The notes beneath the pieces were generated by a model that saw only the letters and a list, made by a program, of their open reading frames with translations, had not been told where the DNA came from and did not search any database. Shown piece after piece: positions 61,166-64,000 of a DNA stretch of 64,000 nt. Position 1 is the stretch's first letter. Each line of letters opens with the position of its first letter. Made by a program: the position numbers and the translations under genes. Source of the DNA: Erythrobacter tepidarius (GTDB lineage Bacteria; Pseudomonadota; Alphaproteobacteria; Sphingomonadales; Sphingomonadaceae); NCBI RefSeq assembly GCF_002155695.1, contig NZ_MUYJ01000009.1:62001-126000 (forward strand). The letters run 5' to 3'.

Positions 61166-62068
61166 ATGTCCCATGCTGATACCCCTGCCCTCAATCGTAG
61201 CCGCGAAGTCCCGGCCAACACCCAGAGCGGCTATGTGATGCTGGTGGTCAGTCTTGCGCTGGTCGGCCTGGCCGGGTGGCTGTTCATCAGCGCGATCGCG
61301 CCGGAGAAGGCTGACGTCCTGCAGGTGATCGGCGCGGGCCTGACCGGCGTTGTCGGCCTGCTCATCCTTACCGGCTTCTACATGATCAACCCCAACGAAG
61401 CCGCGGCGATCCAGCTGTTCGGCGCCTACAAGGGCACCGACCGCAATGAGGGGCTGCGCTGGGTGCTGCCGTGGCTAGGCAAGACCAAGATCTCGGTGCG
61501 CGCCAACAATGTGATTTCGCAGACGATCAAGGTCAACGACGCGCGCGGCAACCCGATTGAAATGGCTGCCCAGGTGGTGTGGCGCGTCACCGATACCGCG
61601 CAGGCGCTGTTCGACGTCGATGATTACCGCGAATTCGTCACCGCCCAGATCGAGGCCGCGGTGCGTTCGATCGGCTCGCGCTATCCCTATGACGACATCG
61701 AGCATCTCGAAGTCACCCTGCGCGGCAATCACGACGAGATCAGCGCCGAACTGCGCCTGGCGCTGATCGAGCGGCTGTCGGTAGCGGGAATCACGGTCGA
61801 CGAATGCGGCCTTACGCACCTCGCCTATGCCCCCGAGATCGCCGGTGCGATGCTGCGCCGCCAGCAGGCCGAAGCCGTGATTGCGGCGCGCAAGAAGCTG
61901 GTCGAGGGCGCCGTGTCGATGGTCGAGATGGCGCTCCACCAGCTCAGCGAGAAAGACGTCGTCCACCTCGACGACGAGCGCCGCGCGACGATGGTGTCGA
62001 ACCTGATGGTCGTGCTGTGCGGCGAGCGCGAGACCCAGCCGGTGGTCAACACGGGGTCGCTCTACTGA
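61166..62068 (+). CDS. SPFH/band 7 domain membrane protein
   Basis: 300-residue protein with two N-terminal membrane spans ([20 protein letters not shown] and [20 protein letters not shown]). An SPFH domain follows from about residue 75: [40 protein letters not shown] and [21 protein letters not shown] helical flotillin-like end has [20 protein letters not shown]. Such proteins form membrane rings or rafts. The gene has a palindromic operator ahead of it and is followed by an RHH protein gene and a small membrane protein. Confidence 0.88.
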
Positions 62069-62078
62069 CGATCCCGCG

Positions 62079-62294
62079 ATGTCGGCCAGGAAACCCTTTC
62101 CTCTGCGTCTCGATCCGGCGCTGCACGATGCGGTCCAGCGGCTCGCCGATGCCGAGCTGCGCAGCGTGAACGCCGAGATCGAGGTGCTGTTGCGCGAGGC
62201 GCTGGCGCGGCGCGGCGTGAAGGTCGCCCGCAGCACCACGCCCCGCCGCGGCCGTCCGCCGGGCACCACAGGCAAAGGAGGCGATGATGCGTGA
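62079..62294 (+). CDS. ribbon-helix-helix (Arc-like) DNA-binding protein
   Basis: 71-residue protein: beta-strand KPFPLRLDPALHDAVQRLAD, then helix RSVNAEIEVLLREALARRG, a complete RHH fold (residues 5-45). The tail is basic and Gly/Pro-rich. It lies 10 nt after the SPFH gene and overlaps the next gene by 8 nt, so it is cotranscribed. RHH proteins usually bind palindromes; the 24-bp palindrome at 61123 is an obvious candidate target. Confidence 0.85.
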   Translation: MSARKPFPLRLDPALHDAVQRLADAELRSVNAEIEVLLREALARRGVKVARSTTPRRGRPPGTTGKGGDDA

Positions 62295-62610
62295 TGGCGA
62301 CAAGCCCTTCCTCATGTTCCGTCGTAACTGGTTCATCCACAATATCACCCCGCGCAATGCTTCGGGCTGGATGCAGATGGGTGTGTGGATGGCGCTGTTC
62401 GCGGCCATGACCGTCGGCTTCGCGGCGTTCGACAGCGCCCGCCCGGCGGACAGCACCTTCGGGGCGCCCGACGCGGTGTTCCTCGTGGGCTTGCTGGTCT
62501 GGACGGTGGGCGGCATCTGGTGGATGAAGTCCCGCGCCGAGGTGATCGACGCCAACGAGGTGATCAGGCAGAAGCGCGAGGCCGAGCGCAAGAGCCGGCG
62601 CGGGCGCTAG
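62287..62610 (+). CDS. small membrane protein of the SPFH operon
   Basis: 107-residue protein with two hydrophobic segments: [20 protein letters not shown], and [16 protein letters not shown] near residue 68. It has a basic [13 protein letters not shown]-terminus. The ATG at 62287 has a strong AAGGAGG five bases upstream and is preferred to ATG 62284. It overlaps the RHH gene. Its last codons overlap by 4 nt the antiparallel bchE-like pseudogene. Function unknown; probably partners the SPFH protein. Confidence 0.7.
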
Positions 62611-63728
62611 TTGCCACGAGCGATCTGGTAGGCGAGCTGCTGGCGCAGGCCTTCGGCCCGGTCGATCATCCGGCAGGTGCAGTCGCCCGCGACCAGACGG
62701 CGATAGAGCCGGGTGAACACCGCCGCATACCAGTGAAACAGGCTATCGGGCAGCGGGATGATGTCCTCGGCCGCGCTGCGATCGGTGGTGAAGCCCCACG
62801 CCTCGCGCGGCACGAAAACGCCTGCACCCGCGAAGGTCCAGGCGTGCTTGCGGATCGCCGCCATCAGCACCGGCGCGGCGAGCAGCGCGGGCAGGTGCCG
62901 CAGCAGCCAGACGACCGCCGGGGGGATGCGCTTGGCAATGATGTAGTCCGCAGTGCGTGCGCCGGCTTCCTCGGCGATGGCATAGCACCCCATCGGCTCG
63001 CGCAAGGACAGCCAGCGATGCAGCCGGAGTGCCTGAATTTCATCGACCACGTCCCTGGGATCGCGCACGCGGTAATCGCGCCAGAACTTCCATTGCGTGC
63101 AGAAGGAACAGGTGAAGGGGCAGCCGCGCGCGAGGTTGGGAATGGCGACCCGGGTGCCGAGCGGAATATAGGTGAACTGCTTCCAGTCGAGCACGTCCCA
63201 ATGGGGCTTGATCGCGGCCATGTCCTTGATCGTCTCGGCCGCCTGGGTGGCGATCACGTTTTCACCTTCCCTGAAGGCGAGGCCCTTGATGGTGCGCGCA
63301 TCGGCGGGCCAGCGGCCCTGCTCGATGGCGGTGAATAGCTCAACCGCGATTTCCTCGCCCTCGCCGCGCACGATCACGTCGATATGCGGGGCCTCGGCGA
63401 GCACCTGCGCATACATGAAGGTCGCATGGATCCCGCCCAGCACCCGCACCGCCCGCGGCACGTGGAGCGCGGCGATCTCCAGCGCCCGCTCGGCGGCGTA
63501 GATCGAGGGGGTGATCGCGGTGGTGCCGACCACGTCGGGCTGGAGCGCGCATCCGCCCGGCCAGATCATCGTCCGACAGCCCCTCGGTCATGGCGTCGAT
63601 GAAGGTGATGTCGGTGAAGCCAGCGCGCTTGAGCGGGCCGGCGAGATAGGCGACCCATGCGGGGGCCAGGTTCCGGCAATCTCGGCCCCGCCGGAACGAT
63701 AGTTGGGATGAACGAACAGAATGCGCAT
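62607..63728 (-). pseudogene. bchE: decayed bchE fused to the rear of bchJ (bacteriochlorophyll synthesis)
   Basis: The N-terminal part matches BchE, the oxygen-independent Mg-protoporphyrin monomethyl ester cyclase. It has [20 protein letters not shown], then [20 protein letters not shown] in a second frame, and [20 protein letters not shown] in a third. Further on are [20 protein letters not shown] and an intact radical SAM motif [20 protein letters not shown]. Frameshifts lie at the G-run near 63661-63665 and near 63545-63552. After about 230 residues it switches at about 63030 to a sequence resembling Bch[19 protein letters not shown] then [17 protein letters not shown] deletion of the back of bchE and the front of bchJ is the simplest explanation. 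Not functional. Confidence 0.72.
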
Positions 63729-63784
63729 GGGCCAATCCCCCCTCCTGATCTGGCTCAAGATGGGGGAGCGGGCGCAATCACGCC

Positions 63785-63798
63785 TTGCGCTGAATCAA
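63785..63798. promoter_or_regulatory. FNR-like box upstream of the bchE relic
   Basis: TTGCG-CTGA-ATCAA matches TTGAT-N4-ATCAA in the second half-site but has two mismatches in the first. It lies 57 nt upstream of the pseudogene ATG and 11 nt after the VOC gene's stop. Anaerobic control of bchE would fit, but the match is imperfect. Confidence 0.3.
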
Positions 63799-63808
63799 GA
63801 AAAACGGA

Positions 63809-64000
63809 TCACCCTTTGGCCGCGTGCTGCGCCCTTGCAATCTCGTGGAGCCAGTCAGCATGGCGCGGGGCTTTCTTGGTCTGGCTCCATTCCTCCAGCA
63901 TCAGCGGCGCGACGCGGGCGAGTTCTTCATATTGCTCGGCCGTGCCGATATCGGCGGCAAGTTCGACCCGGTGGCCGTTGGGATCGAAGAAGTAGATCGA
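63809..64000 (-). CDS. VOC-family (glyoxalase/dioxygenase-like) protein, N-terminus outside window
   Basis: Only the last 63 residues are inside the window. They begin SIYFFDPNGHRVELAADIGT, the conserved FxDPNGHxxEL metal-ligand strand of the vicinal oxygen chelate superfamily (the Glu is a ligand). They end with a helical HADWLHEIARAQHAAKG tail. The family covers glyoxalases, extradiol dioxygenases and fosfomycin resistance proteins, which cannot be told apart here. Confidence 0.8.
   Translation of the reverse strand, partial: SIYFFDPNGHRVELAADIGTAEQYEELARVAPLMLEEWSQTKKAPRHADWLHEIARAQHAAKG

Follow-up and report, generated by a model that had tools for sequence, protein, structure and literature searches.

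The oxygen-independent Mg-protoporphyrin monomethyl ester cyclase, BchE, belongs to the radical-SAM enzymes and has a B12-binding domain. Most aerobic anoxygenic phototrophs are described as lacking bchEJ from the photosynthesis cluster or altogether, and the hypothesis offered in the passage cited is that the two genes bring little or no benefit in aerobic environments (PMC12654162). The gene acsF is stated to occur in all of these phototrophs (PMC4944227, which cites Boldareva-Nuianzina et al. 2013). In Bradyrhizobium, the presence of bchEJ is reported to vary between otherwise similar photosynthesis clusters (PMC10569730), and in Rhodoferax antarcticus bchE and bchJ are described as adjacent to each other and away from the photosynthesis cluster, which contains acsF (PMC5374385). 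A genus-level table, as given in the section cited, lists bchE as detected in genera having other bch genes (PMC7660246), and a further survey, by its own description, recorded BchE and AcsF as present or absent according to profile matches (PMC7947762), a procedure that would not reveal relics. Absence alone cannot separate loss of bchEJ from never having had it.

The window analyzed here is a stretch of 64,000 nucleotides from Erythrobacter tepidarius, located on contig 32 of a 3.2-Mb draft assembly of 32 contigs, and it contains wreckage that makes such a loss visible, in stages and by different lesions when relatives are considered. Positions 63728 to 62607 on the minus strand are a dead bchE-bchJ pair, in which the front of bchE and the back of bchJ are joined in frame. 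Aerobic anoxygenic phototrophs reported to be without bchEJ likewise keep acsF and the photosynthesis cluster, but the cited account speaks of absence (PMC12654162), whereas here the broken genes can still be read and, within one genus, several different lesions fall on one conserved site. In Bradyrhizobium, bchEJ lies inside the cluster and the passage cited makes no mention of a pseudogene (PMC10569730), whereas the pair studied here lies outside the cluster and has left relics. Rhodoferax antarcticus shares the layout of our locus, but both genes are annotated as genes there, and the paper states that no pseudogene of that genome is involved in phototrophic energy conservation (PMC5374385). 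Searching the literature by title or abstract start, we found no paper on a broken bchE in Erythrobacter/Porphyrobacter. The features of the locus and its surroundings, in coordinates of the window, are as follows.

63809 to 64000, minus strand: end of the upstream flanking gene, VOC/dioxygenase-like, used as a synteny marker
63785 to 63798, minus strand: Fnr/FixK-type box TTGATTCAGCGCAA, situated 70 nt before bchE begins, from a consensus search
63664 to 63728, minus strand: bchE relic, codons 1 to about 22, first frame, from the alignment with nine relatives
63663 to 63664, minus strand: frameshift 1, one base missing within a run of C, private to this genome among the ten aligned
63550 to 63663, minus strand: bchE relic, codons about 22 to about 60, second frame (TIGR02026 positions 18-61, E 1.2e-11; DNA alignment)
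63549 to 63550, minus strand: frameshift 2, loss of two bases, seen in this genome and in none of the nine relatives aligned with it
63032 to 63549, minus strand: bchE relic, codons about 61 to about 233, with the radical-SAM motif CPFTCSFC (TIGR02026 positions 60-235, E 2.3e-76; Pfam B12-binding and Radical_SAM)
63026 to 63041, minus strand: deletion junction, in an imperfect repeat common to bchE from codon 231 on and bchJ from codon 63 on (repeats 1099 bp apart in the intact G049)
62607 to 63031, minus strand: bchJ relic, codons about 64 to about 204, stop codon included (TIGR02019, 96.5 bits; 74% identity to the BchJ of G049)
62607 to 63569, minus strand: chimeric open frame of 320 codons, the product of the deletion, from the list of open reading frames and its translation
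62284 to 62610, plus strand: downstream flanking gene of 108 aa, convergent, with a 4-nt overlap with the end of the bchJ relic
62079 to 62294, plus strand: small downstream flanking gene, ribbon-helix-helix-like
61166 to 62068, plus strand: downstream flanking gene, SPFH-like, used as a synteny marker

The identity of the two parts comes from hmmscan against NCBIfam. In the open frame at 62607-63569, residues 7-182 correspond to positions 60-235 of the BchE profile TIGR02026 and residues 171-300 to positions 40-172 of the BchJ profile TIGR02019 (E 3.2e-28, 98.9 bits). BchE positions 18-61 are matched in another frame, within 63343-63777, and the BchE start lies in a third frame, from 63728, so that the bchE relic, which stands directly before bchJ, is spread over three frames. 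Codons 1 to about 233 of BchE thus remain, including the CxxxCxxC motif, which is intact in the translation, and BchJ remains from codon 63 or thereabouts. The Radical_SAM match reaches 29.9 bits against a Pfam cut-off of 29.5, and the Pfam B12-binding domain is also matched in the BchE part. This part scores 257.7 bits over positions 60-235 of 497 of TIGR02026, below the full-length cut-off of 481.35; profile positions 236-497 are absent and the 1-nt and 2-nt deletions interrupt its frame. The BchJ piece taken alone (62610-63038) matches TIGR02019 over profile positions 51-172 of 188 (E 1.7e-27) and lies above the curated cut-off of 74.3 bits, yet it is not a complete gene, having lost its first 62 or so codons and its own start and being read in frame with bchE. 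The same piece matches no Pfam family up to E 1. No further match to bchE or bchJ, and no intact second copy, was found elsewhere in this 32-contig draft genome, which is listed as 100% complete.

DNA alignment with nine relatives that have an open bchE places the missing base of the first frameshift after 63664 and the two missing bases of the second after 63550. The join between bchE and bchJ falls at 63041-63026, within an imperfect 16-nt repeat, the aligner itself having set the gap some 60 columns further on. In G049 the corresponding 16-mers of bchE and bchJ are similar and stand in the same reading phase. One deletion of about 1.1 kb, running from one such repeat to the other, accounts for the join as well as for its being in frame, and we infer repeat-mediated deletion as the mechanism.

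On its upstream side the relic is bordered by a VOC/dioxygenase-like pair and on its downstream side by three convergent genes; the names HPPD, VOC, SPFH and CopG for these flanking genes are provisional labels of our own. Intact bchE-bchJ orthologues are found between the same flanking genes in close relatives. In a tblastn survey of 21 sites, the same gene order with complete or nearly complete bchE and bchJ is seen in G049, G025, G039, G022, G041, G042 and G007. In G031, G034 and G055, bchE is complete or nearly so, and bchJ is frameshifted in the first of these and partly matched in the other two. The site in G059 is clean, with 13 nt between two flanking matches, both stop codons counted.

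We further note that a tblastn search with the chimera matched 34 of 100 genomes (own included), five of them by weak matches to other radical-SAM frames (E about 1e-12 to 1e-14). The named matches that rank highest, in a list that may omit the window's own record, are mostly from Porphyrobacter and Erythrobacter. In 78 of 80 named loci from this list, the BchE match is followed on its own strand by a BchJ match no more than about 250 nt away; of the other two, L093 has its BchJ match ahead of a truncated bchE, and L094 is cut off by its contig end. A bchE-bchJ fusion was found in no other species among the 100 relatives or the 114 genomes of the genus (own included in each). Two loci from Paracoccaceae/Rhodobacteraceae MAGs (L105 and L108) were considered as a second fusion and rejected, since in each of them bchE is full-length and bchJ stands apart from it; both also show an additional BchJ-like match immediately upstream of bchE. 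Separately, G014, a genome of about 290 contigs, carries two bchE-bchJ copies of different divergence on contigs 275 and 217.

Most of this had been anticipated by the original prediction, made from the letters of the window. It had placed a bchE-bchJ fossil at 62607-63728 on the minus strand, with BchE-like sequence around an intact CxxxCxxC and frameshifts at about 63663 and 63549, and the profile matches and the DNA alignment agree with it on each point. The BchJ assignment of the in-frame continuation, which it had called its weakest link, is upheld by the TIGR02019 score of the BchJ piece. One internal deletion in a pair with bchE followed by bchJ in the same direction, as it had proposed, is borne out by the gene order in the named loci and by the position of the junction in a repeat, and its view that BchE was once present beside AcsF agrees with a bchE relic in a genome with an open AcsF gene.

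The site has also been broken in other members of the genus. In G035, 302 nt are missing from bchE and a 2-nt insertion follows further on, but the bchJ frame remains open. G114 has lost codons 149-279 of bchE in frame, leaving a 406-aa product without the CxxxCxxC motif. In G052, bchE runs to about codon 70; unrelated sequence follows as far as the contig end, and the assembly yields no additional match to bchE or bchJ. (At this locus, L125, the stretch from the bchE break onward has no bchE-bchJ match and is perhaps one end of a mobile element.) The damage in G031 is a 1-nt insertion in bchJ, and its bchE is intact. Two further sites are nearly empty. In G023, roughly 80-95 nt of the bchE front are joined to the last 45 or so nt of bchJ, and this relic scores 55.4 bits against a shuffle maximum of 38.3, a score that 0 of 100 shuffles reach. 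In G016, about the last 60-75 nt of bchJ remain; this relic is weak by score (34.0 bits against a shuffle maximum of 32.6, with 0 of 100 reaching it, yet the shuffles of other gaps reach 38-42 bits), so that we rely on its position next to the downstream gene as well. Relics sought in the empty sites of G001, G010, G058 and G003 do not rise above shuffles (21, 56, 59 and 47 of 100 reach the score).

Because the lesions differ, the breaks are independent. In a tree of two upstream flanking genes from 29 sequences, in which many deep nodes have support of 22-66, G052 groups with G049 (support 92), G016 with G042 (98) and G035 with the named locus L041 (89), so that broken and intact genomes appear intermixed. 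These differing lesions also bear on whether the fossil could be an artefact of sequencing or assembly, with the frameshifts being base errors and the junction a collapsed or chimeric assembly. All lesions in our genome are known from one assembly, in 32 contigs, and frameshift 1 falls in a homopolymer. Against this, the join is single, in frame and inside a short repeat, both flanks are ordered as in relatives, the missing middle part is not found elsewhere in the assembly, and similar but different lesions are present at the same site in other genomes. We therefore regard an artefact as very improbable.

Conservation extends upstream of the pair. The bchE start could be placed with at least 250 nt of upstream sequence in 95 of 104 sequences, some genomes being counted twice (under a genome handle and as a named locus). 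A box of the form TTG[AC]-N6-[TG]CAA, which we take to be the Fnr/FixK consensus, occurs within 300 nt upstream of bchE in 88 of these 95 regions, at -62 to -90, and three of those regions have a second box near -30. Mononucleotide-shuffled regions contain the box in 1.1% of cases, and coding windows in 1 of 84. At 63798-63785 the fossil still has this box. FnrL and CrpK are reported to bind upstream of bchEJGP in Rhodobacter sphaeroides, although bchEJGP transcripts rose in an fnrL mutant there (PMC4263372). The conserved box, together with this binding, argues that bchEJ was most likely a low-oxygen operon with a predicted Fnr-type box.

Analysis of substitution patterns indicates that the remains still look constrained. 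Compared with 18 intact relatives, the bchE part has a mean dN/dS of 0.173 (0.139 for intact pairs); for the bchJ part, compared with 17, the value is 0.304 (0.265 for intact pairs). Either the death is recent, then, or the chimera is still of some use. Private changes in the bchE part are nonsynonymous to synonymous 5:1, as compared with a pooled 15:35 in the others (Fisher p 0.018); G007 supplies 8 of the 15 pooled nonsynonymous changes, and without it the comparison becomes 5:1 against 7:32 (p 0.003). The bchJ part shows no such shift (2:2 against a pooled 21:16, p 0.78), and the upstream control gene stands at 5:5 in this genome against 34:59 (p 0.31). The private changes in bchE may thus hint, weakly, at relaxed constraint, and the overall pattern suggests that the pair died recently.

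The other reading of these ratios is a working chimera, a 320-aa protein with the B12-binding domain and radical-SAM motif fused to a BchJ domain, perhaps a sensor, and expressed from the Fnr-type box. The frame is indeed open over 320 codons, dN/dS is far below 1 and the upstream box is retained. However, the start and first 60 or so codons of BchE are out of frame, the BchE profile past position 235 of 497 is gone, the fusion occurs in no other genome searched, and the bchE part carries its excess of nonsynonymous private changes. We give a functional chimera hardly more than a slight chance.

Genes for phototrophy are found on another contig. The pufM and pufL genes are open on contig 11 of the same genome, as is AcsF (477 bits against a cut-off of 192.5). 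Of thirty frames picked by length from 60 kb of contig 11 around pufL, pufM and AcsF, 18 match a photosynthesis or pigment family at 1e-20, namely AcsF, PuhA, PuhB, BchL, BchH, BchB, BchN, PpsR, BchG, BchP, PufM, PufL, BchZ, BchX, BchY, BchC, CrtC and CrtD. Sixteen of these open frames pass at least one curated cut-off, the others being BchN, which is cut by the edge of the stretch, and CrtC, which scores below its cut-off. Twelve frames have no such match, and some of them are probably antisense. By gene content, the organism, a member of the Erythrobacter/Porphyrobacter group, is a phototroph, presumably one that actually grows as such, and the fossil marks the loss of one oxygen-independent step rather than of phototrophy. 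The original prediction had gone wrong here in speaking of a former phototroph, and the search that it proposed for pufLM, bchXYZ, crt and acsF finds the genes open and phototrophy, by gene content, not lost. That the organism or a recent ancestor abandoned phototrophy, with the relic as a leftover, has one plainly dead bacteriochlorophyll gene in its favor and is rejected at the level of gene content by the 18 matches above, leaving it next to no probability.

The identities and position of the parts, their lesions, the open AcsF gene, and the intact copies and differing lesions at the same site in relatives can all be read from sequence, and we hold with high confidence that a living aerobic phototroph of the Erythrobacter/Porphyrobacter group here carries its bchE-bchJ operon as a pseudogene. 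In its ancestor, bchE and bchJ would have formed a unit of two genes, preceded by an Fnr/FixK-type box and separate from the photosynthesis cluster. Since AcsF performs the same step using oxygen, bchE would be dispensable in oxic life. A deletion of about 1.1 kb, probably between short imperfect repeats, one in bchE and one in bchJ, removed the latter half of bchE together with the beginning of bchJ, and the front of bchE was broken by two small deletions. We infer the order of these events, and likewise a relaxed need as the cause of the loss.

A search of 114 genomes of the genus, own included, places this decay in a wider context. AcsF is matched in 84 of them (83 over the cut-off; the 84th, G034, is a fragment), among which 42 have a full-length bchE, four a broken one and 38 none. 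The full BchE query matches 50 of the 114 genomes, the 42 full-length cases, the four broken ones (G000, G035, G052 and G114) and four weak matches to other frames. Every genome of the genus that carries bchE also matches AcsF, since the 46 with a full-length or broken bchE all fall within the 84, and none among the 30 that lack an AcsF match (Fisher p 8e-9). Matches to BchJ occur in 45 genomes, the 42 with full-length bchE plus G000, G035 and G114, and nowhere else in the genus. In the set of 100 relatives, matches of the Photo_RC (pufL/pufM) type occur in 52. G020 and G050 have four such matches each, making two pufL/pufM-type pairs, and on contig 63 of G007 the pufL- and pufM-type matches each lie in two pieces with a flanking gene split too, through poor assembly or decay.

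Among the AcsF genomes, full-length bchE goes with a hemN-like gene, being present in 41 of 65 genomes with a hemN-like match and in 1 of 19 without (p 9e-6, uncorrected for kinship). The split between 'with' and 'without' was set by us at a best E of about 1e-40, and the curated hemN cut-off is passed by 48 of the 114 genomes. Leaving aside eight genomes less than 90% complete, the association stands at 40 of 61 against 1 of 15. Of the 65 genomes with a hemN-like match, 24 are without full-length bchE, this genome among them, its hemN-like gene scoring 331 bits, over the cut-off. The association would fit a shared retreat from oxygen-free tetrapyrrole synthesis.

The need of BchE for B12, which we presume, is backed here by the Pfam B12-binding match. 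Cobyric acid synthase (cobQ) is over its cut-off in 3 of 114 genomes, all three with full-length bchE, which suggests that B12 synthesis is almost generally lacking in the genus. B12 synthesis finds no support as a discriminator between genomes that keep and lose bchE (cobQ against full-length bchE, Fisher p 0.24 among the 84 AcsF genomes). With cobQ missing in nearly all these species, a cyclase living on scavenged B12 may be costly.

We are evenly divided on whether the genus as a whole is midway in a repeated, convergent retreat from oxygen-independent tetrapyrrole synthesis, in which separate events (four different bchE lesions and two near-complete deletions) are disrupting, at a single conserved site, the operon of a B12-dependent cyclase under Fnr control, and the intact presence of this operon tracks hemN. 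The value of the present locus, an ordinary, well-preserved pseudogene, is comparative, for within one phototroph genus the bchE-bchJ operon has been broken independently several times, and this is one of those cases. The absence of bchEJ from aerobic phototrophs is already in print; here its decay is caught in progress. A genus in which 42 of 84 AcsF-bearing genomes keep a full-length bchE is a natural series in which to ask why an aerobic phototroph retains an anaerobic enzyme, whether through micro-oxic niches, B12 supply or chance.
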